DNA of 64,000 nucleotides. It comes from Phycisphaera sp. Its GTDB lineage: Bacteria > Planctomycetota > Phycisphaerae > Phycisphaerales > Zrk34. The DNA is taken from positions 1-64,000 of the forward strand of contig WGMA01000031.1 in assembly GCA_016125285.1 (NCBI GenBank), written 5' to 3'. The position numbers and the translations under genes were made by a program. Below are positions 28,690 through 56,166 of the stretch, in pieces. Each line of letters begins with the position of its first letter. Position 1 is the stretch's first letter. The notes under the pieces are model-generated. The model saw only the letters and a list, made by a program, of their open reading frames with translations, was not told the DNA's origin and did no database searches.

Positions 28690-30156
28690 TCACGCAAGGA
28701 TCGGGTCGAGCACGTGTCCGTGCACGTCGGTCAGGCGACGGTCGATGCCGTTGTGCCGGAACGTGAGCTTGGTGTGGTCGATGCCGAGCAGGTGAAGGAT
28801 CGTGGCGTGCAGGTCGTAGCAGGGGATCGGCGTAAGAGCCTTCCATCCCCATTCGTCACTCTCACCATAGGCGACGCCGGGCTTGAGTCCCGCGCCCGCG
28901 AGCCACGTCACGAACGTGCCGCCGTTGTGATCGCGCCCGGCGGAGCCCTGACTGAACGGCATGCGTCCGAACTCGGTGGTCCAGATGACCAGCGTGTCTT
29001 CGAGCATGCCGCGCTGCTTGAGGTCGCGGACGAGCGCGGCGGCGGGCTTGTCGACCTGGCTTGCGATGGCCGGTAGCTCCGTGGGGATGTTCGCGTGGTT
29101 GTCCCAGTTCTTGGTCGGGCCGCCCGCGCCGCTCCAGACCTGCACGAACCGCACGCCGCGCTCGAGCATGCGCCGGGCAAGCAGGCAGCGTCGGCCGAAA
29201 TCTTCGGTTGGCGCCTCGTTCACGCCGTAGGCGCTCAGCGTGTCCTTCGACTCACCCTTGAGATCGAACAGCTCGGGCACGGACAACTGCATCTTCGCCG
29301 CGAGTTCGTAGGACTCGATACGCGCCCCGAGGCGCGAGTCGCCCGGGTGCTGCTCCTGGTACGCGCGGTTCATCTGCTGAAGCAGCTCGCGTCCCTCGCT
29401 CTCACTCTCCGGCGTGACAAAGCCCGCCTCTTTGGGCGGCATCAGGTGGGAAATCGGATTGGGCGATGAGGCCTTCACAAGCGTGCCCTGATGCTGGGCG
29501 GGCAGAAACCCTGCCGAGAAGTTGCCCTGGTTGTTGTAGGGCAGGCCGCGTGCATCGGGCATGACGATGAACGCGGGCAGGTTGTCGTTGATGCGTCCCA
29601 GTGCGTAGGAGATCCACGCGCCCATGCACGGGAAGCCGGGCAGCACGAAGCCCGTGTTCTGCATGTAGCTCGCCAGGCCGTGCACATTGCTCTTCGTAAC
29701 CATCGAAGTCAGGAACGTCAGGTCGTCGACGATCCCCGCCATGTGCGGCAGCACGCTGCTGACCCATCGGCCGCAGTCGCCGTGCCGCTTGAAGTCGAAC
29801 GGACTCTTGAGCACCTTGAACCCCGCCGAGCCGGTGACCGATTCAACCTTCTCGCCCGAGCCCGGGTCGAACTTCTGCCCGTCGAGTTCCGTGAGGCGTG
29901 GCTTGGGATCGAAGGTGTCGACCTGGCTGGCGCCGCCGTTCATGAACAGTTGCACGATGCGCTTGGCCTTCGCGCGGTGATGGATGCCGCCGTTGAGGTC
30001 GGCGCGCGGCGCACCGACGCCGGCGTCCTTCGCGAGCAGGTCGCTCTGTCCGAGCAGCTGCGACAGGGCGATGCCGGCGAAGCCTCCGCCGATCCCGCTC
30101 AGCAGGTCGCGTCGCGGAATTGTCGTGACGATTCGTGATGCGCTTGATCGATCCAT
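28690..30156 (-). CDS. Tat-exported DUF1501 protein
   Basis: Protein of 488 residues. ATG 30156 is preceded by GAGGA 11 nt upstream. The N-terminus carries a twin-arginine signal (IPRRDLLSGIGGGFAGIALS). DUF1501 marks include [20 protein letters not shown], the phrase GFPCMGAWISYALG, the WTTEFGRMPFSQGSAGRDHN block and the C-terminal YDLHATILHLLGIDHTKL with TDVHGHV. The fold is related to the alkaline phosphatase/sulfatase superfamily, but the family has no established substrate. It is the last gene of the IclR-cytochrome-DUF1501 operon, 31 bp after the cytochrome gene. Confidence 0.93.
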   Translation of the reverse strand: MDRSSASRIVTTIPRRDLLSGIGGGFAGIALSQLLGQSDLLAKDAGVGAPRADLNGGIHHRAKAKRIVQLFMNGGASQVDTFDPKPRLTELDGQKFDPGSGEKVESVTGSAGFKVLKSPFDFKRHGDCGRWVSSVLPHMAGIVDDLTFLTSMVTKSNVHGLASYMQNTGFVLPGFPCMGAWISYALGRINDNLPAFIVMPDARGLPYNNQGNFSAGFLPAQHQGTLVKASSPNPISHLMPPKEAGFVTPESESEGRELLQQMNRAYQEQHPGDSRLGARIESYELAAKMQLSVPELFDLKGESKDTLSAYGVNEAPTEDFGRRCLLARRMLERGVRFVQVWSGAGGPTKNWDNHANIPTELPAIASQVDKPAAALVRDLKQRGMLEDTLVIWTTEFGRMPFSQGSAGRDHNGGTFVTWLAGAGLKPGVAYGESDEWGWKALTPIPCYDLHATILHLLGIDHTKLTFRHNGIDRRLTDVHGHVLDPILA

Positions 30157-30187
30157 GGTGGCAATCGTCCTCGCTAGGCGGTTCCGG

Positions 30188-33100
30188 TCAGTTCACGAAC
30201 ATGAAATCGTTGCTGTTGAGGATGACGCGACACGCGTTCGCCAGGCCGTGCTTCTTCACGTACGCGCCTACAGCGGCGGCTTCGTCGTTGGTCGGCGGGC
30301 GGGCGCACGTCAGCTCGAAGAGCGTGCGGACCTGGTCGTCGAGGTCGGCGTGCTCGCGCCGCAGGCGGTCCGCCATGTGCTCGCAGTACCGCAGCAGGAA
30401 GCGGTCGTTGAGCATCGCCAGGGCCTGCGGCGCGGTGAACGAGGTCGTGCGCTTCGGCGTCAGCTGCGATGCGTCGGGGCAGTCCAACGCGTCCATGAAC
30501 GGGTCGGGCACGGTGCGGAAGATGAAGCGGTAGACGCAGCGCCGTCGGGCGGCGGGGCTGTCGACGTCGAAGCCGTCGTAGTCGAGGTTCGGTGTCACGT
30601 GCACGCCCTTGCTCGTGTTGAACTGCCTCGCGGACGGGCCGCCCATCGTCAGGTCGATCTTACCGCTCATCGCCAGCAACGCGTCGCGCAGCTCCTCGGC
30701 GTCGAGGCGCGTGCGGTTCATCCGCCATAGGTAGTGGTTGTCGGCGTCGCTCGCGGCGTATTTCTCGTTGTCGGTCACGGACTGTCGGTACGCCGCGCTG
30801 GTGACGATCAGCCGGTGCAGGCTCTTGAGCGATCCGCCGTGATCGCGGAACCATACGGCCAGCCAGTCGAGCAGCTGCGGGTGCGTCGGCAGCGAGCCGT
30901 TGCGGCCGAAGTCGTTCGGCGTGTCGACGATGCCGCGGCCGAAGTGGTACTGCCACACGCGATTCACGATCGATCGCCACGTCAGCACGTTCTCATCAGC
31001 GCTGAGCCAGTTCGCCAACGCCACACGCCGGGCGCCTTCGTCGTCCATGTCGTCGAGCTTGAACCGCGACTCGAGCCCCTCGACGCATCCCAGCGTGCCG
31101 GGAACCGCCGGCTTGATCGGCGAGCGGATGTCGCCGCGCCGCAGCACCGAAACCGGGCGCGGCGTCTTGGCCGGGACGAAATTGCCCTTGGCGGCGAAGT
31201 CGCTCGCGACCGCGTACACCAGCTGGACCGGCGGTAGCGCCGCCAGCGCCTTGTCGTTTTCGTCGCGCAGCACGTGCAGCGCCAGCGCCGCGCTCTGATC
31301 CGCGGTGCGTTGCGCCGGGGCGCCCTTGAGGATCGATGTCAGTTCCGCCGTCAGGCTCGTCATGCTGGCGATCGACGGGGCGGACGTCGCCGACAGCCGG
31401 GGCCGGCCGATCAGGTGAACGCTGCCGTGCAACTGCTCGAGCACGATCTTCAACACGACGCCGTCCTTCGCGTCGATCGGCGTTTTCAGTTCGAACACGG
31501 CGAAGTGCGGCTTGCCGACCTCCGGGTAGATGCCCCACGCCGTGGTCGGGTTGCCGTCCAGCGCGTGCTCGATGGTCCATCCCTGCTGGTTGAAATCGGC
31601 GGTGGGGCGGTGAAGTTCGACGGGCTTCATGGCCGCGGGATCGGACGCTGGCGCGGCGAACAGCTTGAACTCCGACAGGTGCAGGTTGCCGTTGTCCTGC
31701 CGTCCTGGCCCGTTGTGATAGAGGCTCGCGTCGGTCATGACCTCGAGGCGCACCGCGGTGATGCGATCGAGCCTGGGCGACGCGGTGATCGTGTACGTGT
31801 CCTTGTCCGGCCGCGCGCCGCTGAACACGATCGAGCCATCGGCCTGCGGCGTCGCGGTCGCGCCACCGGCGGATTCGATCGACTCCGGCGTGAGCACCGT
31901 CCACACATTGCCCTCGGCGATCTCCTTGTCCCACGCGCTGACGCGCGACTGAACGTCGACGCTCAGCAGTATCTCTCGCGGCACGCGTCCGGCCTTGATG
32001 TCCGCCTGCATCGCCAGCAACGCCCGCCGCCTGGCGCCGTGCTCCGGGTCGGGGTCGTACGCGCGATCGACGCGATCCACGCCCGCGAACACGGCCTGCA
32101 GGCTGTAGTAATCCTCCTGCGAGATCGGGTCGAACTTGTGGTTGTGGCAGCGGGCGCAGTGCACGGTCGAACTGACGAACGTGGACATCGTTGTCATGAT
32201 GATGTCGTCACGATCGAGGATGCGCGCCATCTTCTTGTCGAGCGTGCCGTCTTGAATGCCCATCTGCGAACTCTCGTCCCACGGACCGGCAGCCAGAAAG
32301 CCGGTGGCGATCACGCCCTGCGGATCGTTCGGCATCAGCACGTCGCCGGCGACCTGCTCGCGGACGAACTGTGCGTAGGGCTTGTCGTCGTTGAACGACC
32401 GGACGAGATAGTCGCGGTAGGGCCAGGCGTTGTCACGCGGGGCGTCCTCGTCGTGGCCGTGCGTCTCGGCCCAGTGGATGATGTCCATCCAGTGCCGCGC
32501 CCATCGCTCGCCGTAACGCGGGCTCGCGAGCAGCCGGTCGACGACACGCTCGTACGCCTGCGGTGAGTCGTCGGCGATAAACGCGTCGACCTCCGCGGGC
32601 GTCGGCGGCAGGCCGGTGAGGTCGAACGTCACGCGCCGGATGAGCGTGCGTTTGTCCGCCGGCGGCGACAGCTTAAAGCCCTTCTCCTGCAGCTTGGCGA
32701 TGACGAAGGCGTCGATCGGCGTAAGCACGCGGTCCTGTTGTTGCTTGACCTGCGGCGCCGGCGAGTTGTGCAGCGGCAGCAACGACCAGTGCGTCGGCCG
32801 CGTGTCGGCCGCCGCGTCCGCCTCGGCCGGCCAGTTCGCGCCCTGGTCGATCCACGCGCGGAGCACGCCGATCTGCTTGGCGGTCAGACGCTCACCCTTC
32901 GGGGGCATGATCATGTCTTCGTCGAGGCCCGCGACGTAGTGGATCAGCATGCTCGTCGCGCTGTTGCCCGCGGTGATCGCTTCTCCGATCGATCCCCCCT
33001 CAAGTGCATCGGCCTTGCGATCGAGTCGGTAGTCACTCTTGTGCTTCTCCGGGCCGTGGCACTTGAAGCAGCGTTCCTTAAACAGCGGCTGAACGTCGCG

Positions 33101-33250
33101 AATAAAGTCGATCTTCTTTTCCGCGGGCTTGGGCAGGCGGCTCAGCAGATCCCTTTCCGTCTCCTGCGCACGCGCGGTCGTCGTCGCGGCCCCGAGCCCG
33201 ACGACGATCGTCGCGATACACCACAGAAGCATGCGACGCGTGGCGCTCAC
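30188..33250 (-). CDS. Secreted DUF1549/DUF1553 c-type cytochrome
   Basis: Protein of 1,020 residues. The GTG at 33250 overlaps the TGA of the IclR gene (GTGA) with GGAG 7 nt upstream; the ATG at 33232 is a weaker alternative. A signal peptide follows ([14 protein letters not shown] to TTTARA). Haem c sites: CFKCH at 61-65 (Planctomycete cytochrome C domain) and CARCH near 362. DUF1549 is marked by [20 protein letters not shown] and [20 protein letters not shown], and DUF1553 by [20 protein letters not shown] and the C-terminal [15 protein letters not shown]. Between them is a roughly 150-residue beta-rich insert ([17 protein letters not shown]) resembling a discoidin-like module. Likely an extracytoplasmic redox protein; donor, acceptor and substrate unknown. 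Confidence 0.92.
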   Translation of the reverse strand: [1020 protein letters not shown]

Positions 33251-34068
33251 TTCATCTCTCCGATAAGGCTCGATACGCGATCGCCCGCGGCTTTGACCTG
33301 GATGCCGAGTTCGCGGAAGCGGGTCTTGGGCATGCGCTTCGCCGGTCCGGAAATCCAGATCGTGCCCACGACGGCATCGGTCGCGTCGAAGATCGGGGCG
33401 GCGATACAGTGGATGCCTTCGTCGGCCTCCGCGTAGTCGGTAGAGTAGCCGTCGGACAGAATCTGCTCGCATTCACGCAGCAGCGCGGCCTTCCGCGTGA
33501 TGGTGCGCGGCGTGCATCGCACCAAATCGATCTGGTCGATCACCGCGTCCCGCCGCGCGTCGGGCATGTGCGCCAGCAGCAGCTTGCCGGGGGCGTTGTT
33601 GTACAGCGGAAAGCGCAGGCCGAGGTCGACGGCGATACGCAGCGCTTCGAGGCCCTCGACCTGATCGATGATCACGCCCTCCAGGCCGTTTAGCACGCCC
33701 AACTGAACGGTCTCGCGTGTCTCGTCCCGCAGCGCGGTCATCGCCTCGTGCGAGATCGCGGGGAGGCTGACGCTGCCCCAACGCGGCGGCGCCAGGCGGA
33801 GCAGTTGGGGCGTGAGCTGAAACGCCTTCGATCCCGCGTCACGCGACAGATAACCTCGCGCCAGCAGGGTCTGCGTGATGCGGAACACGGCGTTCATCGG
33901 GAAGCCGAGCTGATCGCTCAGCTCGGACAGCGTGTATCCGGTTGGCGAAGTGCTCAGCAGTTCGAGGATGTCGAGGGATCGATCGAGGGCGGGGACCGAT
34001 CCTGGCGATGACGCGTCGGCGTCGGCGGCGGATCGCTCGGCTGTGCTGGGCGTCTTGACTCGGCTCAT
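33247..34068 (-). CDS. IclR-family transcriptional regulator (first of two)
   Basis: Protein of 273 residues from ATG 34068. The winged helix-turn-helix is at about 27-80 (ALDRSLDILELLSTSPTGYT, then LSELSDQLGFPMNAVFRITQ), and the IclR effector domain fills about 95-265 (SHEAMTALRDETRETVQLGV, NNAPGKLLLAHMPD, EGIHCIAAPIFDATDAVVGT). It is the first gene of the operon with the DUF1549/1553 cytochrome and the DUF1501 protein, and overlaps the former. It probably controls its own operon through the palindrome at 34084-34097; that link is inferred from position. The effector is unknown, though many IclR proteins respond to sugar acids or aromatic acids. Confidence 0.93.
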   Translation of the reverse strand: MSRVKTPSTAERSAADADASSPGSVPALDRSLDILELLSTSPTGYTLSELSDQLGFPMNAVFRITQTLLARGYLSRDAGSKAFQLTPQLLRLAPPRWGSVSLPAISHEAMTALRDETRETVQLGVLNGLEGVIIDQVEGLEALRIAVDLGLRFPLYNNAPGKLLLAHMPDARRDAVIDQIDLVRCTPRTITRKAALLRECEQILSDGYSTDYAEADEGIHCIAAPIFDATDAVVGTIWISGPAKRMPKTRFRELGIQVKAAGDRVSSLIGEMK

Positions 34069-34083
34069 CGTGTGCTCACGTGT

Positions 34084-34097
34084 TTCTACAAGTAGAA
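34084..34097. promoter_or_regulatory. Perfect 14-bp palindrome, candidate IclR operator
   Basis: The top strand reads TTCTACAAGTAGAA, a perfect TTCTAC/GTAGAA dyad with a 2-bp centre. It lies 16-29 bp upstream of the IclR start and just downstream of the predicted -10 of that gene, a position typical of autorepression. Confidence 0.5.
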
Positions 34098-34111
34098 GTC
34101 ATTCCGGATAT

Positions 34112-34141
34112 AGAATACGCAGCGGCAGCCGCGCCGGTCAA
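34112..34141 (-). promoter_or_regulatory. Sigma-70-like promoter of the IclR-cytochrome-DUF1501 operon
   Basis: On the minus strand TTGACC (34141-34136) is followed by an 18-bp spacer and TATTCT (34117-34112). The predicted transcription start falls near 34105, before the 14-bp palindrome and the ATG at 34068. Confidence 0.45.
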
Positions 34142-43562: not shown

Positions 43563-44933
43563 TCAGGTCGCCGCGGTCTTGCCACGCCGACCCAGGCGCA
43601 GCCAGCCGCGTCGCTTGGCGGTGTCGATGAGCACCGCGGCGAGCAGGATCGCGCCCAGCACGATCTTCTGGTTGAACGGATCGACCTCCGTGAGGTTCAT
43701 GCCGTTGCGGATCACTGCGATGATGAACGCGCCGATGAGCGTGCCGAGCATCTTGCCCTCGCCGCCCATCAGGCTCGTGCCGCCGACGACGACCGCGGCG
43801 ATGACGTCAAGTTCGTACATCAGGCCGAACTTCGGATCACCGCTCTTGAACTGCGAGGCGAGCACGATGCCGCCGAGTCCGGCCAACGCGCCGCACATCG
43901 TGTAGACGAACAGCAGCACGCGTCGCACGGGCACGCCGCTGAGCCGCGCCGCCTCCGCGTTGCCGCCGACCGCGTAGATGTATCGGCCGAGCGTGGTCCG
44001 CGTCATCACCACATGAGCGATCGCATAGAGAGCAACCATCATGATGACGCCGTTCGGGACGCCCGCCGTGTCGCCGCGACCGAGCCAGATGAACGTCTCC
44101 GGCACGGCGTTGATCGACTCGCCCGCCGACAGCCGCCACGCCAGCCCACTGGCGATCAGCATCATCGCGAGCGTCGCGATGAACGGCGGCACCTCGAACA
44201 CCGTCACCGTCACGCCGGACAGCGCGCCGATCATCGCGCACACGGCGATCGCCGCGGCGCAGCTGAGCACCATCGCCCCGGCGCCCGCCTCGGCGCCGCC
44301 GGCCGCGTCGCGGATGAGGATCGCCGCGACCACCGCCGACAGCGCGATCAGCGAGCCCACGGACAGGTCGATCCCCGACGTGATGATCACCATCGTCATG
44401 CCGATCGCGATCACGGCGATCACCACGATCTGGTTCGCGACGTTCAGCAGGTTGTCGGTCTTGAGAAAGTTCGGCCAGCGGTAGCTCTGCGGCGTGGCGA
44501 CCGTCACCTTGCCGAGCGCGGGGTACTTCGCCGCGAGATTATCGAACACGGTCCACCGCGACGTTGCCTCGTTCGTCGCGATCACGTCGAGCTTCATCCC
44601 CGCCGCGGCGATGCGGTCGAGCGCCTTGCGTGCGTCGCTCGGCTGACCCTTGACGGTCTCGGCGATCGTGCCGCCCGCGCCCTCGATGCGGGCGCGGATC
44701 GCATCGATGAACAGCTCGTCGTCCTTCGTGTCGCGCGCCGCGATGAGCACCGACGCGCCGCCGCCGTGCGTGGCGATGATCTGCCGAGCCACCGCGTCGC
44801 CGCCGTCGGCCCCGGTGGGGTGCTGCTCCGCGAGCGTCGCGATGCTGTAATAGCCGCACAGCAGCAGCAGCACGAAGACCATGCCGTAGTCTGTAACGAA
44901 GCGCGACCATGCGGAGTGTGATTGCTCGGTCAT
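43563..44933 (-). CDS. Sugar ABC transporter permease (RbsC-like) with inserted periplasmic domain
   Basis: Protein of 456 residues from ATG 44933 (AGGA 5 nt upstream). From residue about 165 it is a standard RbsC/BPD_transp_2 permease with multiple membrane helices (IVVIAVIAIGMTMVIITSGI, DLSVGSLIALSAVVAAILI) and the cytoplasmic loop GRYIYAVGGNAEAARLSGVP, ending in AAVVVGGTSLMGGEGKMLGT and IVLGAILLAAVLID. Between the first helix (about 15-35) and the second lies an extra stretch of about 120 residues (36-155) that is hydrophilic and alternates strands and helices, like one lobe of a type-1 periplasmic binding protein (SVLIAARDTKDDELFIDAIR). It is the last gene of the RbsB-A-C-type operon, 15 bp after the ATPase gene. 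Confidence 0.92.
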   Translation of the reverse strand: MTEQSHSAWSRFVTDYGMVFVLLLLCGYYSIATLAEQHPTGADGGDAVARQIIATHGGGASVLIAARDTKDDELFIDAIRARIEGAGGTIAETVKGQPSDARKALDRIAAAGMKLDVIATNEATSRWTVFDNLAAKYPALGKVTVATPQSYRWPNFLKTDNLLNVANQIVVIAVIAIGMTMVIITSGIDLSVGSLIALSAVVAAILIRDAAGGAEAGAGAMVLSCAAAIAVCAMIGALSGVTVTVFEVPPFIATLAMMLIASGLAWRLSAGESINAVPETFIWLGRGDTAGVPNGVIMMVALYAIAHVVMTRTTLGRYIYAVGGNAEAARLSGVPVRRVLLFVYTMCGALAGLGGIVLASQFKSGDPKFGLMYELDVIAAVVVGGTSLMGGEGKMLGTLIGAFIIAVIRNGMNLTEVDPFNQKIVLGAILLAAVLIDTAKRRGWLRLGRRGKTAAT

Positions 44934-44948
44934 TGAAATCCTTCTTGG

Positions 44949-46451
44949 TCAGCGCACCGCCAGACGCATGACGTCTTCCTGCGTGGCGTTGGCCACGTCG
45001 GTGATCTCACCGGTGATGCGCCCCTCGTGCATCACCAGCACGCGGTCGCTCATGCCCAGCACCTCGGGCAGTTCGGAGCTGATCATGACGATCGCCTTGC
45101 CCTGGACCGCGAGCTCGTTGATCAGCAGGTAGATCTCGTACTTCGCGCCGACGTCGATGCCGCGGGTCGGCTCGTCGAAGATGATCACCTCGGCGTCGCG
45201 CTCGAGCCATTTCGCCAGCACGACCTTCTGCTGGTTGCCGCCCGACAGGTTCTTCGCCAACTGCTCCTGGTGCGGGATCTTGATGCGGAGCGACTCGACA
45301 TAGTGGCGAAACCGTTCACGCTCGCGGCGATGATCGATCCATCCCGCCGTCGCGAGGCGCGGCAGATTCGGCAGAGCGAAGTTGTCACGCACGGACTGGC
45401 CGAGCACGAGCCCCTGCGACTTGCGGTCCTCGGTAAGCAGGCAGACGCCGTGCCGGATCGCGTCGCGCGGCTGGCGGATGTCGAGCATCTTGCTGTCGAG
45501 TTCGATCGTGCCGGCGTCGCGCCGATCCGCGCCGAAGATCAGCCGCGCGGTCTCGGTTCGGCCCGACCCGACCAGGCCCGTCAGCCCGAGCACCTCGCCG
45601 CGCCGCACCTCGAACGACACGTCCTTCACCGCCTCGCCGCGCCGCAGACCCTTGACCACGAGCCGCGGCCCGCCGATAGCCGTCGTGTGCTTGGGGAATT
45701 CGCTGTCGAGCTTGCGGCCGACCATCATCTCGATGAGGCGCTCGCGGTCGATGTCGTCGATCGCCTCCGTGCCGATGTACTGGCCATCCCGCAGCACGGT
45801 CACGCGGTCGGCGATCGAGTCAATCTCGTCGAGGCGGTGGCTGATGTAGATCACGCCGATGCCCTGCGCCGTCAGTTCGCGGATGATGTCGAACAGGTGG
45901 TCGACCTCCTTCGGCGTCAGCGTTGCGGAGGGTTCGTCCATCACGATGATGCGTGCGTCGAGCGACAGCGCCTTGGCGATCTCGACGATCTGCTGCTGCG
46001 CGACGGTCAGTCGGCCGCACGGCACGTCGATCGGCACGGGCACGCCGATCCGCCTGAACAACTCCGTGGCTCGGCGCGCCTCGTCACGCCGGTTGATGAA
46101 TCCCGCAGACGACCGCTCGCGGCCGAGGAAGATGTTCTCCCGCGCCGTGAGGCCCGGCACGAGATTGAACTCCTGGTAGATCACGCCGATGCCCGCACGC
46201 TGCGCGTCGATCGGGTTCGCGATGTGCTGCTCGACGCCGTCGACGCGGATCGTCCCTGCGTTCGGCACGTGCGCCCCGGCGAGGATCTTGATCAGCGTGC
46301 TCTTGCCCGCGCCGTTCTCGCCGAGCAGCGCCACGACCTCGCCGGCGTGCACGGTCAGGTCGACGCCGCGCAGCGCGTGCACGCCGGGGAACGACTTGTC
46401 GATCCCGCGCATCTCGAGCAGTGGGGCGGCAGTGTGGGTCGCGGTGGTCAC
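44949..46451 (-). CDS. Sugar ABC transporter ATP-binding protein (RbsA-like, two ABC domains)
   Basis: Protein of 500 residues from GTG 46451 (AAGG 8 nt upstream), 10 bp after the substrate-binding protein gene. The first ABC domain has Walker A GENGAGKST (44-52), signature-like LTVAQQQIVEIAKAL and Walker B ARIIVMDEPSATL. The second has a degenerate Walker A (GLVGSGRTETARLIFG), as is usual in the RbsA/MglA group, with an intact LSGGNQQKVVLAKWL signature and VIIFDEPTRGIDVGA. It powers uptake of the sugar or polyol bound by the downstream-acting lipoprotein component. The sugar cannot be assigned from the ATPase. Confidence 0.95.
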   Translation of the reverse strand: MTTATHTAAPLLEMRGIDKSFPGVHALRGVDLTVHAGEVVALLGENGAGKSTLIKILAGAHVPNAGTIRVDGVEQHIANPIDAQRAGIGVIYQEFNLVPGLTARENIFLGRERSSAGFINRRDEARRATELFRRIGVPVPIDVPCGRLTVAQQQIVEIAKALSLDARIIVMDEPSATLTPKEVDHLFDIIRELTAQGIGVIYISHRLDEIDSIADRVTVLRDGQYIGTEAIDDIDRERLIEMMVGRKLDSEFPKHTTAIGGPRLVVKGLRRGEAVKDVSFEVRRGEVLGLTGLVGSGRTETARLIFGADRRDAGTIELDSKMLDIRQPRDAIRHGVCLLTEDRKSQGLVLGQSVRDNFALPNLPRLATAGWIDHRRERERFRHYVESLRIKIPHQEQLAKNLSGGNQQKVVLAKWLERDAEVIIFDEPTRGIDVGAKYEIYLLINELAVQGKAIVMISSELPEVLGMSDRVLVMHEGRITGEITDVANATQEDVMRLAVR

Positions 46452-46461
46452 GTCGCGTGCC

Positions 46462-47472
46462 TTACTGGAGCTCGGGGTCCTTCTCGGCGTCGGCTTTGCG
46501 GTACAACTCGGTCGGGATCAGTTGCTCGGCCGGGACCTCTTCGCCGGCGAAATGCCTGACCATCGTCTGCACGGTCAGTCGGCCGATCTTGTCGGGGAAC
46601 TGGATCGGGTCGGCGTAGATCTTGCCTTCCTTGATCGCCTGCTTACCGATCGGCTGGCCGTCGAACGCGATGATCTTGACCTGGTCCGTCTTGCCGGCTT
46701 TGGCGAGCGCGGCGTACGCGCCGAGCGCGGACGGGTCGTTGATCGCGAAGATCCCCGCCAGATCGCCGTTCGCCTGCAGCGCGTCCTCCGCGGCCTTGAA
46801 TCCCTCGTCCTGCACGCCGCCGCCGGGCAGCGTCGCAACGATCTCGATCTTGCCGCCCTTGCCCGCCGCGTTGTGCGCGTCGATCACTTCCTTGAAGCCC
46901 TGCACGCGAAGCTGGCACGACTCGGCCTGCTGAAAGTGCAGCACCGCGACCTTGCCGCCCGCCTCGCCCAGCGCCTCGATCATCGCGTCGCCCGCGAGCC
47001 GGCCGCCCTGCAGGTTGTCCGTGGCGATGTGCGACACGGCCTTTGCTTCCGGATCCGTGCACGCCAGGTCGCAGGTGAACACCGGGATGCCCGCCTCGTT
47101 GGCCTTGCGGATCGCCGGGCCGATCGACTTCGCGTCGCACGGGTTCAGCACGATCGCCGACACGCCCTTGGTGATGAAGTCGTCGATCTGGTTCGACTGC
47201 TTCTGCACGTCGCGTTCGCCGCTCACGACGATGACGTCGTACCCGTTCTTCGCCGCCTCGTCGGTGATGCTGTCGGCGATCACCTTGAAGAACGGGTTGG
47301 TCATGGTCAGCGTGCTGAACCCGATCGTGCCCTTCGACGCGGCGGACTTGGCGCCGCCACCGGCGCCCGCCGTGCTTGTCGCGCCGCCGGAGTTGGGCGA
47401 TTCGCCGCACCCGCCCATCGACAGCAGCCCCAGTGTCAGTACGATCGCGATCGCCCTCGTCGCCTGATTCAT
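46462..47472 (-). CDS. Sugar ABC transporter substrate-binding lipoprotein (RbsB-like)
   Basis: Protein of 336 residues. ATG 47472 has AGGG 7 nt upstream and opens a lipoprotein signal (IVLTLGLLSMGGC, acylated Cys in GGC). After a Gly/Ala/Ser-rich linker the mature fold is a type-1 periplasmic binding protein: GTIGFSTLTMTNPFFKVIAD, KQSNQIDDFITKGVSAIVLN, AGIPVFTCDLACTD, HIATDNLQGGRLAGDAM, IFAINDPSALGAYAALAKAG and VKIIAFDGQP. These are ribose/galactose-type hallmarks, but the ligand is unknown. The promoter lies in the 177-bp gap shared with the divergent IclR gene. Confidence 0.93.
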   Translation of the reverse strand: MNQATRAIAIVLTLGLLSMGGCGESPNSGGATSTAGAGGGAKSAASKGTIGFSTLTMTNPFFKVIADSITDEAAKNGYDVIVVSGERDVQKQSNQIDDFITKGVSAIVLNPCDAKSIGPAIRKANEAGIPVFTCDLACTDPEAKAVSHIATDNLQGGRLAGDAMIEALGEAGGKVAVLHFQQAESCQLRVQGFKEVIDAHNAAGKGGKIEIVATLPGGGVQDEGFKAAEDALQANGDLAGIFAINDPSALGAYAALAKAGKTDQVKIIAFDGQPIGKQAIKEGKIYADPIQFPDKIGRLTVQTMVRHFAGEEVPAEQLIPTELYRKADAEKDPELQ

Positions 47473-47571: not shown

Positions 47572-47601
47572 TTGACGTGCGGCCGACGTGCAGACTATAT
47601 T
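47572..47601 (+). promoter_or_regulatory. Sigma-70-like promoter of the IclR-AroE-DUF4432-cytochrome operon
   Basis: TTGACG (47572-47577), 18-bp spacer, TATATT (47596-47601). The -10 overlaps the -10 of the opposite promoter. The predicted start is near 47608, inside the first 11-bp direct repeat. Confidence 0.55.
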
Positions 47602-47622
47602 CACATACGAAATCAATATCAA
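47594..47622 (-). promoter_or_regulatory. Sigma-70-like promoter of the sugar ABC transporter operon
   Basis: Minus strand: TTGATA (47622-47617), 17-bp spacer, TATAGT (47599-47594). Both boxes match 5 of 6 consensus positions at ideal spacing. The predicted leader to the substrate-binding protein ATG is about 115 nt. Confidence 0.58.
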
Positions 47623-47633
47623 ATACGAAATCA
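47605..47633. promoter_or_regulatory. Two 11-bp direct repeats with 18-bp period, candidate IclR operator
   Basis: ATACGAAATCA occurs at 47605-47615 and again at 47623-47633. The first copy sits in the spacer of the transporter promoter and at the start site of the IclR promoter. The second flanks the -35 of the transporter promoter. A regulator bound here would control both directions. Confidence 0.55.
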
Positions 47634-47649: not shown

Positions 47650-48423
47650 GTGGCAGCGACGAAGACCACCGGCAAGGGCGTACCGAACCTCTGCCGCGGC
47701 ATGGCCGTGCTGGAGTACCTCGCGACGCACAACCGCAGCGCGACGATCACGGAGCTCGCCGAGCGGCTCGACTATCCGACCGCGTCGGTATTCCGCATCA
47801 CCGCCGCGCTCGAGGACATGGGCTACCTGTCACGCGACCCAGCGACGAAGGCGTACGCGCTGACGAATCAGTTCCTGCTGCTCGGCCAGCCGCAGGGGCG
47901 CGACCGCGGGCTGGTCGAAGCCGCGCTCCCGGCGATGCGCGCCGTGCGAAAGAAGACCGGCGAGACCACGCAACTCTGCTGCCTCGTCGACCGCGACGTT
48001 GTCATCCTCGAGCAGTTGCTCGCCACGCACCCGTTCAAGTACTCGGTGGACCTCGGCGCGCGCTGTCCGGTGTACAGCTGCGCGCCGGGCAAGGCGATGG
48101 TGGCGTTCATGCCGGACGACGCCCGCGAGGAGCTGATCGGTCGCCTGCGGTTCAAGAAGTTCACCGAGAACACGATCACCACGCGTGAGGCCTTCCGCCG
48201 CGAGCTCGACGAGATCCGCGCGTGCGGCTACGCGATCGACCGTGCCGAAGGCCTCGAGGGCATCCGCTGCATCGCGGCGCCGATCCGCGACCGTCACGGC
48301 CTGCCGGTCGGATCGATCACGATCGCCGGCCCGTCGGCTCGCATCCGCGAGGCGGACGACACGCGGATCGGGAAGATTGTCGCCGAGGCGTGCGCCAAGG
48401 CCGAGCAGAACTACAACGCGTAA
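47650..48423 (+). CDS. IclR-family transcriptional regulator (second of two)
   Basis: Protein of 257 residues from GTG 47650 (AGAGG 8 nt upstream). The winged helix-turn-helix is at about 12-70 (ITELAERLDYPTASVFRITA, then LEDMGYLSRDPATKAYAL) and the effector domain at about 85-250 (KTGETTQLCCLVDRDVVILE, CAPGKAMVAFMPDDAREEL, GIRCIAAPIRDRHGLPVGSI). It heads the operon with the AroE-like dehydrogenase, DUF4432 lipoprotein, cytochrome and DUF1501 genes and diverges from the sugar transporter. The direct repeats at 47605-47633 are its most likely binding sites. As with the first IclR gene, its operon ends in a DUF1549/1553-DUF1501 pair. Confidence 0.94.
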   Translation: MAATKTTGKGVPNLCRGMAVLEYLATHNRSATITELAERLDYPTASVFRITAALEDMGYLSRDPATKAYALTNQFLLLGQPQGRDRGLVEAALPAMRAVRKKTGETTQLCCLVDRDVVILEQLLATHPFKYSVDLGARCPVYSCAPGKAMVAFMPDDAREELIGRLRFKKFTENTITTREAFRRELDEIRACGYAIDRAEGLEGIRCIAAPIRDRHGLPVGSITIAGPSARIREADDTRIGKIVAEACAKAEQNYNA

Positions 48424-48452: not shown

Positions 48453-49307
48453 ATGAGTGAGTTGAATTTTCTCAGTGAACTGACCGGCTGTTTCTCTAGG
48501 CCCTGCGCCGAGAACCCGAGCGTCGCGATGGTCGAGGCGGCGTATCACCGCCACGGCTTGGACTGGCGGTACATCAACTGCGAGGTCCCGCCGGAGCGGC
48601 TCGGCGACGCCGTGCTCGGCGCGCGGGCGATGGGGTGGCGCGGGTTCAACCTGTCGATCCCCAACAAGATCGAGATCATCCAATACCTAGACGGACTGGG
48701 CGAGTCGGCGCGGATCATCGGCGCGGTCAACTGCGTCGTGGCGCGCGACGGCAAACTCATCGGCGAGAACACCGACGGCAAGGGCTTCCTCCAGTCGCTG
48801 ACCGACAAGGTCGACCCGGCGGGCAAGTCGATGGTGATGTTCGGCGCGGGCGGCGCGGCGCGGGCGATCGGCGTCGAGGTCGCGATCGCGGGCGCGGCGA
48901 AGATCACCGTCGTCAATCGCAACGCGCAACGCGGCGGCGAACTGGTCACGCTGCTCAACGACAAGACACCCGCCGACGCGGATCTGGTGGTGTGGGACGG
49001 CGAATACCGCATCCCCGACGGCACGGACATCGTCGTCAACGCCACGTGCATCGGCCTTTTCCCTGACGTCGACGCGCGACTGCCGCTCGATGTGGACACG
49101 CTGAAGGAGGGCATGGTCGTCGCCGACGTGATCACCAACCCGCCGCGCACCCACCTCGTGCGCGACGCCGAGGCGCGCGGCTGCGTCGCGCTCGACGGCA
49201 TGGGCATGCTCGTCAACCAGGGCGTGATCGGCATCAAGTACTGGACGGGCATCGACGTCGACGCGTCGGTGATGCGGGCGAAGCTCGAAGCGATCTTCGG
49301 CGGCTGA
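48453..49307 (+). CDS. AroE-like (shikimate dehydrogenase superfamily) oxidoreductase, probably catabolic
   Basis: Protein of 284 residues from ATG 48453, 29 bp after the IclR gene. Family motifs: RGFNLSIPNK with the catalytic Lys, GENTDGKGF with the catalytic Asp, the nucleotide loop FGAGGAARAIGVEVA, and NRNAQRGGEL, which favours NADP. The N-terminal substrate loop departs from biosynthetic AroE: where shikimate is normally held by an S-x-S-P-x-x-H-N type segment, this protein reads TGCFSRPCAENPSVAMVEAA. With an IclR regulator, a sugar transporter and an epimerase-like protein as neighbours, it more likely oxidises a sugar-derived or quinate-like cyclitol than serves aromatic synthesis. The exact substrate is unknown. 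Confidence 0.88.
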   Translation: MSELNFLSELTGCFSRPCAENPSVAMVEAAYHRHGLDWRYINCEVPPERLGDAVLGARAMGWRGFNLSIPNKIEIIQYLDGLGESARIIGAVNCVVARDGKLIGENTDGKGFLQSLTDKVDPAGKSMVMFGAGGAARAIGVEVAIAGAAKITVVNRNAQRGGELVTLLNDKTPADADLVVWDGEYRIPDGTDIVVNATCIGLFPDVDARLPLDVDTLKEGMVVADVITNPPRTHLVRDAEARGCVALDGMGMLVNQGVIGIKYWTGIDVDASVMRAKLEAIFGG

Positions 49308-49319
49308 TCGAGTTCAACC

Positions 49320-50570
49320 ATGAAGCAGGCTGCGAAGACATCTATCACGTACGGGCTGCTGATCGCCGCCGCGCTCTGCGCAGGCTGCGCGACGAGCGAG
49401 CGCGTCGCCGTGCTCACCGACGCGACATCGAACACGCGCACCGACACGAAGACGATGCGATGGAGCGACGCGCCCGGCGTGACCGTGACGAAGCGCACGC
49501 TCCACGGCGGCAAGCAGGAGGGCGTCGAGGTCGTTACCGTCGACAACGGCGCGATCACCATCACCGTCATCCCCACACGCGGCATGAACATCCTCGACGT
49601 GCGCGACAGCCGCACCGGCGAGCGGCTGCTGGGGTGGGACTCGCCGGTCAAAGAGGTCGTGCACCCGCAATACATGAACCTCGAAAGCCGCGGCGGACTC
49701 GGCTGGCTCGAGGGATTCAACGAGTGGATGGTGCGCTGCGGACTCGAATTCGCGGGCCACCCGGGGCGCGACAAATTCGTGACGAACACCGGCGACGAGG
49801 CCGAGATGGACCTGACGCTGCACGGCAAGGTCGGCAACATCCCGGCGTCGCGCGTCGAGGTGTCGATCGACGACGCGCCGCCGCACCGCGTGCACGTCCG
49901 CGGCGTGGTGTACGAGCGGCTGTTCTACGGGCCGAAACTGAAGCTCGCGACGGACCTGTCGACCGAGCCCGGCAGCGGTGCGTTGCACATAGACGACACG
50001 GTCACGAACCAGGGCGCGTTCGACCAGGAATTCCAGCTGATCTACCACTGCAACTTCGGCCGCCCGCTGCTCGGCGAAGGGGCGCACGTGTCGGCGGCGG
50101 TGCAAAGCGTGACGCCGATGAACGCGCACGCCGCGGAGGGGATCGACGGCTACGCGACCTACGCCGGTCCGACGAAGGGTTTCGTCGAGCAGGTCTACCT
50201 GATTGAGCCGTACGCCGACGCGTCCGGCCGGACGATGGCGTTGGTGACGAACCCCGCGGGTGACCGCGCCGCGTCGTTGAGCTGGCCGATCGAGCAGCTG
50301 CCGTACCTGACGGTGTGGAAGAACACCGCGGCGGAGGCGAGCGGATACGTCACGGGCATCGAGCCGGCGACGGGCTTTCCGTTCAACCGGCGCGTCGAGC
50401 GCAAGGCCGGCCGCGTGCCGAAGCTCGCACCGGGCCAGACGCGTCGCTTCCAGCTCGACGTGAACGTCTATCGCGGTCGCGCCGATGTCGAGCGCGCGGC
50501 GCGAGCCGTGCAGGCCATCACAGCCGACCGCGCAGCCAAGGTCGTGCGCGAAGCGCCATCAACCGATTGA
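49320..50570 (+). CDS. DUF4432 lipoprotein of the aldose 1-epimerase superfamily
   Basis: Protein of 416 residues from ATG 49320, 12 bp after the dehydrogenase gene. It starts with a lipoprotein signal (GLLIAAALCAGC, acylated Cys at the end). The body matches DUF4432, a branch of the galactose-mutarotase-like fold: VIPTRGMNILDVRDSRTGER, SRGGLGWLEGFNEWMVRCGL, LTLHGKVGNIPASRVEV, LIYHCNFGRPLLGEG and TGIEPATGFPFNRRVE. Members in characterised contexts act on sugars or sugar derivatives. The lipid anchor places this one outside the cytoplasm, where it could act on the ligand before uptake by the adjacent ABC transporter. Confidence 0.88.
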   Translation: MKQAAKTSITYGLLIAAALCAGCATSERVAVLTDATSNTRTDTKTMRWSDAPGVTVTKRTLHGGKQEGVEVVTVDNGAITITVIPTRGMNILDVRDSRTGERLLGWDSPVKEVVHPQYMNLESRGGLGWLEGFNEWMVRCGLEFAGHPGRDKFVTNTGDEAEMDLTLHGKVGNIPASRVEVSIDDAPPHRVHVRGVVYERLFYGPKLKLATDLSTEPGSGALHIDDTVTNQGAFDQEFQLIYHCNFGRPLLGEGAHVSAAVQSVTPMNAHAAEGIDGYATYAGPTKGFVEQVYLIEPYADASGRTMALVTNPAGDRAASLSWPIEQLPYLTVWKNTAAEASGYVTGIEPATGFPFNRRVERKAGRVPKLAPGQTRRFQLDVNVYRGRADVERAARAVQAITADRAAKVVREAPSTD

Positions 50571-50596
50571 AGCCTGAACGCGAGGACCAGGGCGCC

Positions 50597-53500
50597 ATGT
50601 GGACCTCTTTGATGAAGTGTTGTGACCCGAGATCGATTGTCGCCGCGGCGGCCGTGTGCCTCGCGCTGTCGAGCACGCTGCGTGCCGCGCCACCGAGCGC
50701 CGAGGAGCTGGAGTTCTTCGAGAACCGCATCCGGCCGGTGCTCGTCGAGCACTGCTACGAGTGTCACAACAGCGTGAAGAAGGCGAAGGGCGGTCTGTCG
50801 GTGGACCATGCCGCGGCGATCGCGAAGGGCGGCGACACGGGCCCGCTGCTCAACGCGGCCGATCCGGACCGGAGCCTGCTGCTGCGTGTCATCCGGCATG
50901 AGGTGGACGATCTGAAGATGCCGAAGGGCGGGCCGAAGCTCGCGCCGGAGGTGATCGCGGACTTCGAGCGCTGGGTGAAGCTCGGCGCCCCCGATCCGCG
51001 GGACAAGGCGCCGACCGCGGAAGACCTCGCGGCCGCGACGTCGTGGGAGAACACCTTCGAGCGACGCCGGCACTGGTGGAGCTTCGTGCCGGTGCACAAA
51101 GTCGCGGCGCCGGAGGTCGCGAACGAGGCGTGGGCGCAGCACCCGATCGACCGGTTCGTCGACGCGAAACTCGCCGCGGCGCACGTCACGCCCGCTGACG
51201 TCGCGGATCGTCGGACGCTCATCCGCCGACTCAGCTACGGACTGATCGGCCTGCCGCCGACGTCCGAGCAGATCGATGCGTTCGTCAACGACCCCGCGCC
51301 CGACGCGTATGAGCGCCTCGTCGATCGTCTGCTCGCCGACCCGCGTTTCGGCGAGCGGTGGACGCGGCACTGGATGGACTGGTACCGCTACGCCGAGTCG
51401 CACGGCAGCGAGGGCGACCCGGCGATCCCCGAGGCGTGGCGCTACCGCGACTACCTCATCCGCGCGCTCAACGCGGACGTGCCCTACGACCAGCTCGTCC
51501 GCGAGCAGATCGCCGGCGACCTGCTGCCGGAGCCGCGCATCAACCGCGAGCTCGGCGTCAACGAGTCGGCGATCGGCGTCGCGCAGTACCGCTTCGTGTA
51601 TCACGGCTTCGCGCCCGTCGACGCGCTCGACGAGCAGGTGCGGTTCACCGACAACCAGATCGACGTGATCAGCAAGGCCGTGCTCGGCGTGACCGTGTCG
51701 TGCGCCCGCTGCCACAATCACAAGTTTGACGCGATCAGCCAGAGCGACTTCTACGCGTTGTACGGCGTGTTCGCGAGCTGCCGCCCGGCGATGATCACGA
51801 TCGACACGCCGGATCGATTCGCCGACAGCAAGACGACGCTGGCCCGGCTCAAGGGAGATATCCGCCGCGGCCTGGCCGACGCGTGGCTCGCGTCGCTCGA
51901 CGGTGTGGCGAAAGGGTTGTTCGACGAAAGGGCCGCGCCATGGCAGGGGGCGATGAAGGCGGCGGCGAAGGATCCGTCGGACCCGCTGTGGGCTTGGACG
52001 CAGCTGCGCGACAAGTCCGGCGACGCGTGGGGCAAGGCGTGGACGTCGGTCCATGAGCGCTATGAGCAGAGCGTCGAAGACCTCGCGGCGCAGCACGCGG
52101 TGTCCGGCGCGTGGCGGCTCGGCACGGACGACGCCGACGCGTGGCACACGGACGGCGTCGGGCTCGACGGGCGTGCGAGGGCCGGTGAGTTTTCCGTGCT
52201 GCCCGTCGGCGACCGCGCGATCACCGACGTCTACCCCGCGGGCGTCTACACGCACGGGCTTTCGACGAAGCTCAACGGGCTGCTCACGTCGCCGCGCTTC
52301 GAGGTCGACATGCAGCGGATCTTCGTCCGCGTCGCGGGTGACGGCGAGTCGATCGCGCGCTACGCGATGCAGAACTATCCGCGCAGCGGCACGGTCTACC
52401 CGGTGCAATACAACAAGGGCGGCGCGTTACGGTGGGTCAGCTGGGACATGAGCTATTGGAAGGGCGACCACGCGTACCTGGAGTTCGCGACGGCGAAGGA
52501 CACGCCGGTGCTGGTGAAGAATCAGGACCGCTCGTGGTTCGGCGTGACCGACGTCGTGATGACGCACGAGGGCGACCCGGCGCCGCGCGACGAGATGGCG
52601 GAGTTTGTCGCGCCGCTGTTTGAGGTCGACGCCGCGGACGCGCCGAGGTCGGCCGAGACGCTGGCGCAGCGGTATGTCGCGGCGCTGCGTGTGTGTGTCG
52701 AGGGGTTCAAGCGGAACGAGATGACCGACGCGCAGGCGAGATTCCTCGGCGCGTTCGTGCGGGCCGGGCTGCTGCCGAGTCGGCTCGCGGATCTCGGCGA
52801 CGTGTCGAAGCTCGTGGCGGCGTATCGCGACGCGGAGAAGGGCGTGCCCGTGCCGACGCGGTCGCCGGGCGTCGTGGAGGGCGACGCGTTCGATCAGCCG
52901 CTGTTCGTGCGCGGCAATCACAAGCAGCCCGGCGAGCCGGTGCGGCGGCGGTTTCTCGAAGCGTTCGGCGGCAAGCCGTACGGCAAGGAGAGCAGCGGCC
53001 GCCTCGGGCTCGCGCGTGACCTGACGGACCCGGCGAACCCGCTGACGAGCCGCGTGATCGTCAACCGCATCTGGCATCACCTGTTCGGCCGGGGGATCGT
53101 CGCGACGACGGACAACTTCGGCAAGCTCGGCGAGCGGCCGACGCATCCCGAGCTGCTGGACTACCTCGCGAGCCGGTTCGTCGAGCGCGGCTGGTCGATC
53201 AAGGACATGATCCGCTTCATGGTGACCAGTCGCACGTATCGCCTCGGCAGCCAGGCGCCGGCGGGCATCGCGACGACGGACCCGAACAACCGTCTCCTAT
53301 CGCATTTCCCCGTGCAGCGGCTCGACGCCGAGGCGATTCGCGACGCGATCCTCGCGGTGTCGGGGCAGCTGAGCGATCAGATGTACGGCCCGAGCGTGCC
53401 CGGCGGGTCGACACGCCGCAGCGTGTATGTTGCCGTCCGACGCAACGATCTCGACGATTTTCTTAAGGCGTTCGACGCGCCGGAACCGAACTCGACGCAG

Positions 53501-54691
53501 GGGCGGCGTCCATCGACGAACGTGCCGGCGCAGGCGCTGATGCTATTGAACGACGGCTTCGTAACGGACCGCGCGAACGCGTGGGCGAACGGCATGTTCA
53601 ACGCCTCGGGCCTGACCGACGAGCAGCGGATCGAGCGGATGTTCGTCGCGGCGGTGGGGCGGTCTCCGAGCGAAGACGAGATGCTGCGATGCCTGACGTT
53701 CGTACGCGGTGGCGGTGCGCGCGACGCAAAGGCGCAGCTTGAGCTCGCGGCGGTGCGGAAGGAATTGAACGCGACGGAAGCGGAGATCGACGCGATCGTC
53801 GCGCCGGTACGCACGCGGCTGCTCGCGGAGCGTGGCACGCGGCAGCCCGCGGTCGACGCGGCGGCCCCGCAGCCGATCGCGCGGTGGGAATTCGACGGCG
53901 ATGCGCGCGACGCGATCGGCGGATTGCACGGCACGCTGCGCGGCAAGGCGCGCATCGACAGCGGTGAACTCGTCGTCGACGGCGGCGATTCGTACGTCGA
54001 GACCGCGCCGCTCGATCGCACGCTCACCGCCAAGACGCTCGAGGCGTGGGTCCGACTCGATAATCTCGGCCAGCGCGGCGGCGGCGTGATGTCGTTGCAG
54101 ACGGACGGCGGCGACATGTTCGACGCGATCGTCTTCGGCGAGAAGGACCCGCGGCAGTGGATGGCGGGCAGCGACTTCTTCCGTCGAACCGAGTCGTTCA
54201 ACGGCGAGCCGGAGGCCGACGCCACGTCGCGGCTCGTGCACGTAGCGATCGTTTACCACGCGGACGGCACGGTCGTCGGCTACCGCGACGGCAGGCGATA
54301 CGGCGCGGCGTACCGATCGAAGGGGCCGCTGACGTTCGAGCCGGGCAAGTCGCAGGTGCTGTTCGGTCTGCGTCACGGCAACCCGTCGGGCAACCGCATG
54401 CTCAGCGGGCGCATCGCGCGGGCGTGCCTGTATGACCGGGCTTTGAGTGACGACGAGGTCGCGCGGTCCGCCGCCGCGGCAGGAACGGGCGTCACACACG
54501 AACAGGTGCTCGCCGCACTCGACGCCGATCAGCGGCGGCACGTCGAGCGCCTCGCGTCGGCCCGCGACACGCTGCGTGGTCGGCTCACCGCGGCGCAGGC
54601 CGTTGCGAGCGAGACCGGCGACACGCGCACCGCCTGGCGCGACCTCGCGCTGGCGATCTTCAACCTCAAGGAGTTCATCTACCTCCGATGA
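50597..54691 (+). CDS. Secreted DUF1549/DUF1553 c-type cytochrome with C-terminal LamG domain
   Basis: Protein of 1,364 residues from ATG 50597 (AGGG 5 nt upstream), with a signal peptide ending near SSTLRA. Haem c sites: CYECH at 53-57 (Planctomycete cytochrome C domain) and CARCH near 370. DUF1549 is marked by [20 protein letters not shown] and [20 protein letters not shown], and DUF1553 by [20 protein letters not shown] and [21 protein letters not shown] LamG-like lectin domain (about 1092-1290, [20 protein letters not shown] to [19 protein letters not shown]) is inserted between the conserved DUF1553 core and the C-terminus. Its stop overlaps the start of the DUF1501 gene (ATGA). The lectin domain suggests the redox unit is held on a polysaccharide; that is inference. 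Confidence 0.92.
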
Positions 54692-56166
54692 GCACGCCCA
54701 ACCCATCCCGCGTAAACGGACCACACACGTCGGCTCTGTCGCGGCGCGACATGCTGCGCCGCTGTTCAACGGGGTTCGGCCTGACGGCGCTGAGCGCGCT
54801 GATGGCGGACAAGACGATGGCGGCCGGTGTCGGCGCGACCGTCGACCCGGCGTCGACACGACCGCGTCCGCCGCAGTTTGCGCCGCGCGCCCGCAGTGTG
54901 ATCTTCTGCTACATGTCGGGCGGCGCGTCGCACGTCGACACGTTCGATCCCAAGCCGCGCCTCGTTCGCGACCACGGCAAGCCGATGCCGATGCCGATCG
55001 AGCGCACGCAGTTCAACAACAACGGCAACCTGATGGCCAGCCCGTGGACGTTCCGCCCGCGCGGGCGGTGCGGCACGCAGATCAGCGACCTGCTGCCGCA
55101 CCTCGGCTCCGTCGCCGACGAGCTGGCGGTGATCCGCTCGATGACCGCGAACTTCTCCGAGCACGCGCAGGGCAACTACTTCATGCACACCGGGTTCCCG
55201 TTCCTTGGCTACCCCAGCGCGGGCGCGTGGGCGAGCTACGGGCTGGGCAGCGAGTCGGACAACCTGCCGGGCTTCGTGGTGTTGCGCAGCGGCGGGGCGT
55301 CCATTCCGCACGGCGGCGTCGGCCTGTTTTCCAGCGGCTTTCTGCCCGCGGTGCATCAGGCGTCGATCATCACCGCCGACGCTCCGGAGCCGGTGCCGAA
55401 CATCAAGCCGCGCGGATCGGCGCCGCGTCAGCGCCGCACGCTCGATCTGATCGGCGACCTCGACACGCGGTTCGTCGACGCCACGCGGCGCGACACGCAG
55501 GTCGAGTCGGCGATCCGCAACTACGAAATGGCGTTCCGCATGCAGTCGGCCGTGCCGGAGTTGGTCGACATCAGCGGCGAGTCGGAGGCGACGAAGCGGC
55601 TCTACGGCCTCGATGACCGGGACCCGAAGAAGGCGGCGTACGCGCAGCAGTGCCTGCTCGCCCGGCGGCTCGTCGAGCGCGGCGTGCGCTTTATCGAGCT
55701 GTCGTGCCTGTCGTACAACATCGGCGGCGGCAACGGCCCCAACCCGTGGGACCAGCACGGCGATCTGGAGAACGGCCACGGCAAGATGGGCACGCAGATC
55801 GATCAGCCGATCGCCGGGCTCATCAAGGACCTGCGACAGCGCGGCCTGCTCGATCAGACGCTGATCGTGTGGGCGGGCGAATTCGGGCGGACGCCGTTCT
55901 CGCAGGGCTCGAAGGGGCGCGACCACGACCCCTTCGGCTTCAGCGTGTTCATGGCGGGTGGCGGTACGAAGGGCGGCACGGTGTACGGCGCGACCGATGA
56001 GTTCGGCTACCGCGCCACGGAGAACGTGTGCGACGTCTACGACATGTGGGCCACCGTGCTGCACCTGCTAGGCGTCGATCACGAACGCCTGACCTACCGA
56101 CACGGCGGGCGCGATCTGCGCCTGACCGACGTGCACGGTGACGTGCTGCACGACATCATCGCCTAG
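54688..56166 (+). CDS. Tat-exported DUF1501 protein
   Basis: Protein of 492 residues. The ATG at 54688 overlaps the stop of the cytochrome gene (ATGA). It carries a twin-arginine signal ([20 protein letters not shown]) and the DUF1501 marks [80 protein letters not shown] and TDVHGDV. It is the distant paralogue of the protein at 28690-30156 and occupies the same place, directly after a DUF1549/1553 cytochrome. Its stop codon shares the four-base CTAG with the stop of the convergent efflux pump gene. Confidence 0.93.

Follow-up and report, generated by a model that had tools for sequence, protein, structure and literature searches.

IclR-family regulators have been surveyed (Suvorova and Gelfand 2021, PMC8222616), and the operators of group 1 follow the consensus GKTYCRY-W3-4-RYGRAMC. 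In that survey, tandem sites with centres 18-22 nt apart were predicted in 94 orthologous groups and interpreted as tetramer binding, the usual zone of the sites was -20 to -80 before the regulated gene, the sites of PcaU and PobR included an extra direct half-site, and planctomycetes were absent from the taxonomic table (PMC8222616). Bidirectional promoters of E. coli are the second relevant system; their starts commonly lie 10, 18 or 23 bp apart, and five such promoters showed little polymerase competition in vitro at basal activity (Warman et al. 2026, PMC12825309). At acrA/acrR, a transporter operon and the gene of its local repressor diverge from a shared -10 that bears a regulator site (PMC12825309). 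For the PSCyt/PSD genes, involvement in carbohydrate metabolism is no more than a suspicion (PMC5615132).

In this study, a divergent promoter between an IclR operon and a sugar transporter operon was analysed in a 64,000-nt stretch of planctomycete DNA (hereafter the window) and in the remaining contigs of the same genome. The locus is likely a bidirectional promoter carrying a tandem operator of the IclR protein encoded next to it, and this protein would repress its own operon, the RbsABC-type transporter and a PSCyt operon on another contig, C8. The arrangement is an ordinary kind of device; new are a candidate planctomycete operator form, whose centre has two bases, and the proposed connection of a sugar transporter with PSCyt genes.

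Divergent operons and their promoter pair

The genes of the two operons are as follows.

47650-48423, plus strand: IclR-family regulator (HTH_IclR PF09339, 7.5e-15; IclR_C PF01614, 2e-40; both above the gathering cut-off)
48453-49307, plus strand: shikimate/quinate dehydrogenase-like protein (AroE family)
49320-50570, plus strand: DUF4432 protein
50573-54691, plus strand: PSCyt1-DUF1549-DUF1553 planctomycete cytochrome with a Laminin_G_3 domain
54688-56166, plus strand: DUF1501 protein
46462-47472, minus strand: RbsB-like sugar-binding lipoprotein, first gene of the divergent operon
44949-46451, minus strand: sugar ABC transporter ATPase (RbsA/AraG type)
43563-44933, minus strand: sugar ABC transporter permease (RbsC type)

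The regulator scored below the cut-offs of all NCBIfam equivalogs, including BhcR (185.5 against 350), PcaR/PcaU (148.4 against 284.75), IclR (131 against 380), KdgR (123 against 275) and AllR (99 against 406). The nearest known structures of the sugar-binding protein are ribose-binding proteins, and no named transporter model gave it a score above the cut-off. In two other genera, the genes of its closest relatives immediately follow genes of glycoside hydrolase family 32 (L098, 2-1480; L099, 2578-3975), a weak hint that fructose or fructosides may be the substrate. Orthologues of the transporter reached 65% identity, and no IclR gene was adjacent to them in the loci examined.

The 177-bp gap between the leftward and the rightward operon contains two sigma70-like promoters.

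47572-47601, plus strand: predicted promoter TTGACG-N18-TATATT of the IclR operon (hexamers at 47572-47577 and 47596-47601; 10/12 consensus matches)
47594-47622, minus strand: predicted promoter TTGATA-N17-TATAGT of the sugar ABC operon (hexamers at 47622-47617 and 47599-47594)

The opposite -10 hexamers overlap in a common -10 region (47594-47601), and the hexamers and spacings were found at 47572-47622 as the first-pass annotation had described them. A scan of 2.1 kb recovered three promoter-like sites, as against 0.2 +/- 0.4 in shuffled sequence, and two of the three form the divergent pair. Transcription usually starts 6-7 nt after the -10. The hexamer positions thus predict starts at about 47608 (plus) and 47587 (minus), approximately 21 bp apart; the plus start lies to the right of the minus start, so the transcripts would diverge without overlap. 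The hexamer coordinates thereby rule out opposing, overlapping transcripts, and the earlier description of the promoters as face-to-face had the geometry wrong. RNA polymerase is unable to occupy a shared promoter in both orientations at once. The suggestion that the two operons are mutually exclusive is nevertheless unsupported, because the little competition found at basal activity in E. coli implies that overlap of the -10 alone does not make operons mutually exclusive (PMC12825309). The predicted separation of about 21 bp falls within the 10-23 bp of the promoters tested there. The layout resembles that of acrA/acrR, where the regulator is of the TetR family and the starts are mapped, whereas the regulator in the window is of the IclR family and the starts are predicted.

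Tandem candidate operators across the promoters

The 11-mer ATACGAAATCA occurs twice across the promoter pair with an 18-bp period. These are its only two exact matches in the 6,085,941 bases (90 contigs) of the genome, the reversed control giving none. The repeat is present as first reported; its true length is 15 nt, TCA[C/A]ATACGAAATCA, at 47601-47615 and 47619-47633 on the plus strand. Sixteen bases, instead of the 17 bp given earlier, separate the second repeat from the GTG at 47650. The repeats had also been placed over the start of one promoter and the -35 and spacer of the other. The second 11-mer (47623-47633) lies immediately beside the minus -35 (47617-47622) without covering it; the cover is provided by the full 16-bp site at 47616-47631. 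Reading the 11-mer as the half-site of one large direct-repeat site was dropped after the C8 copy and an IclR paralogue of the window were aligned, and two 16-bp palindromes were adopted instead. The recognition unit is probably such a palindrome, with the 11-mer as one arm plus the centre.

47598-47613, minus strand: candidate IclR-type site 1, ATTTCGTATGTGAATA (13/16 to GKTYCRY-WW-RYGRAMC; C8 equivalent TTTTCCTATGTGAATA)
47616-47631, minus strand: candidate IclR-type site 2, ATTTCGTATTTGATAT (12/16 to the same pattern; C8 equivalent ATTTCTTATTTGAAAT)

On the plus promoter, site 1 spans the -10 and the start region, and on the minus promoter it spans the spacer and some of the -10; site 2 covers the minus -35. 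The four minus-strand units, two in the window and two on C8, are imperfect palindromes of the form ATTTC-N6-GAAWT; ATTTCTTATTTGAAAT has perfect 5-bp arms, and the individual sites are weak palindromes with 4-6 of 8 pairs. The agreement of the two window sites with the half-sites GKTYCRY ... RYGRAMC (13 and 12 of 16) is accordingly approximate, and single matches of 12-13/16 are common when taken one at a time. Chance does not account for two features, namely the existence of a further genomic copy with a matching period, and the 25% GC of the element in window DNA of 67% GC.

Compared with group 1 of the IclR survey, the half-site class WTTYCRY/RYGRAAW (subgroup WTT) is the same, the 18-nt centre spacing found at the window pair, on C8 and at the paralogue of the window lies within the published 18-22 nt, and the site centres, which precede the start of iclR by 44 and 26 nt, lie inside the 20-80 nt zone. 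The window sites differ in having a centre of 2 nt, as against 3-4 nt in the published consensus, and the consensus with a 3- or 4-nt centre gave no match at the candidate positions. PcaU and PobR, with their three-box operators, are likewise IclR-family proteins with a directly repeated half-site; there, a third half-site is added to one compact site, whereas the window carries two whole pseudo-palindromes.

The second copy on contig C8

The first-pass annotation had proposed a genome search for pairs of ATACGAAATCA. The exact pair occurs nowhere else, and a degenerate pair with the 18-bp period was found on C8. The 15-mer with up to 3 mismatches matched 154 places in the genome; two of these, C8:69747 and C8:69765, share a strand and repeat the distance of 18 bp. 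The second copy of the module (C8:69744-69777) is identical to window positions 47594-47633 at 34/40 positions, whereas the next best match to the 40-bp element, within 283 kb of sequence from the same genome, reached 25/40. We estimate a probability well below 0.01 that a 40-bp match of this quality would arise by chance at any place in the genome; BLASTN of the C8 copy gave E = 0.35, a value that scores the best 21-bp piece only. A leftward promoter, TTGAAA-N17-TAGAGT, is in register at C8, and the rightward (plus) promoter is not conserved in the alignment. A 30-bp consensus pattern drawn from both copies matched only two places genome-wide, with none in the reversed control, and no convincing copy was found among 297 other genomes of the class. 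Three-mismatch matches in two other genomes (L117, L118) were set aside, as neither had an adjacent IclR or PSCyt gene and one lay within coding sequence.

That the repeat arose by chance tandem duplication of an AT-rich 18-mer, serving no regulator, is very improbable. Exact 11-mers repeated within 40 nt are not rare in themselves, with about a dozen distinct cases in the 64-kb window; against this reading, there is one further copy of the two-unit element, likewise placed in a promoter with the register kept, at an identity well above the background maximum of 25.

The gene directly after the C8 copy encodes PSCyt1, DUF1587, DUF1595, DUF1592, DUF1588 and DUF1585 domains and is followed by a DUF1552 gene. 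The genome contains 53 PSCyt1 domains in total, about 1 gene in 100 by our estimate, so that a PSCyt gene is unlikely to be the C8 target by chance. The predicted -10 at C8 (L085, 7731-7741) stands 9 nt before the ATG of the PSCyt gene; either the transcript is nearly leaderless or it starts elsewhere.

Near matches of the type ATTTCGGAT were rejected as operator copies, being members of dispersed repeats. These repeats, with 7-nt units (AATCCGAAATCCGAAATCC), often form inverted pairs and occur both within and between genes of the same genome (L092, L095, L084, L076, L075, L132).

IclR relatives and the proposed control

A paralogous iclR gene in the window shows a parallel layout.

33247-34068, minus strand: paralogous iclR, with 16-bp palindromes at 34083 and 34101, exactly 18 bp apart

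Its tandem pair, ATTCTATATCCGGAAT and CTTCTACTTGTAGAAA, stands just before its start and differs from the sites at 47598-47631. The palindromes include TTCTACTTGTAGAA, and in this region (28690-34116, minus strand) the iclR gene is followed by a PSCyt/DUF1549/DUF1553 gene (30188-33472) and a DUF1501 gene (28690-30156). Across the 64 kb, two sites of at least 12/16 were found 18 bp apart at three places, two of which precede the two iclR genes; these thresholds were picked after the data had been seen, and the count is therefore support and not proof.

The closest homologue of the regulator in the searched genomes of its family, order and class had only 45% identity, and a scan of genome contigs returned only distant IclR proteins. 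Footprinting by orthologues was abandoned, as no homologue exceeded this identity and the homologues carry another motif, GTTTGTTATATAGAAC. A 16-mer like GTTTGTTATATAGAAC was present in the 220 nt upstream of 12 of the 22 planctomycete homologues at 12/16 or better, and of eight at 13 or better. Upstream of the homologue at L054, from another planctomycete family, GTTTCGCATATGAAAC matches at 16/16 with a 2-nt centre; together with the GTTTGTTATATAGAAC-like 16-mers, this suggests that a short centre may be the norm in this group. The recognition helix reads TASVFRI in the 47650-48423 protein, mostly KNSVFRI in the homologues, and MNAVFRI in the paralogue of the window.

The first-pass proposal that the IclR protein encoded alongside has its candidate operator here is thus well supported, as a prediction, by the motif type, the tandem spacing, the position, the second genomic copy and the parallel layout of the paralogue. 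It is improbable that the repeats instead serve a different regulator, such as a global or carbon-status factor, with the iclR gene a mere neighbour and the C8 copy part of the regulon of that factor. Such a reading would fit the 8 kb examined on C8, in which no IclR gene was found, the different sequence before the IclR homologues, and the predicted nature of the pairing between protein and operator. A global factor should, however, have many sites, and only two places were found in 6.1 Mb; the half-sites and their spacing are of the IclR type; and the recognition helix differs along with the operator, the paralogue having yet another sequence in both.

In the proposed control by the IclR protein, two dimers (one tetramer) would bind the two 16-bp sites. 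Occupancy of site 2 would block the -35 of the transporter promoter. Occupancy of site 1 would mask the spacer and some of the -10 of that promoter, and in the regulator's own promoter the -10 with the start region. As the two sites together overlie both promoters, one complex could shut off both directions, thereby combining autoregulation of the iclR operon with control of the transporter; joint repression of both operons is the likeliest outcome. IclR would be released by a ligand, which is probably taken up through the transporter and is a sugar or a related metabolite; the transporter and the iclR-aroE-DUF4432-PSCyt-DUF1501 operon would then be induced together, and the PSCyt1/DUF1592-DUF1552 operon on C8 would come under the same regulator by the same rule.

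The IclR family includes activators. We infer repression here. Activation of the transporter promoter by IclR, whether by itself or combined with autorepression in the manner of PcaU and PobR in other bacteria, is unlikely, even more so than control by another factor. The score of 148 bits to the PcaR/PcaU model points towards activation, though it is below the cut-off; the overlap of the candidate sites with the -35, spacer and -10 of the transporter promoter, where both hexamers match the consensus closely, speaks for occlusion rather than recruitment.

A candidate operator that a monosaccharide transporter shares with a remote PSCyt operon points to a testable regulator and an inducer class, and it offers a candidate operator form for planctomycete IclR proteins, a group outside the table of the published survey (PMC8222616). 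Of the seven iclR homologues examined from the same taxonomic family, five shared an operon with a PSCyt gene or diverged from one; of 17 from other families, none did (flanks of up to 1.5 kb on each side). We tentatively suggest, at somewhat less than even confidence, that IclR proteins with 16-bp operators may be dedicated switches for operons of the PSCyt/DUF1501 type in this planctomycete family, tying the cytochromes to the uptake of a particular sugar; if so, the C8 operon and the window operon would act on one substrate.

A third IclR gene of the genome, on contig C19 (L086, 6300-6700), diverges from a PSCyt1 gene across GTTTGTTATATAGAAC, and this copy has the same sequence as the 16-mer that precedes a homologue from another genus (L007).
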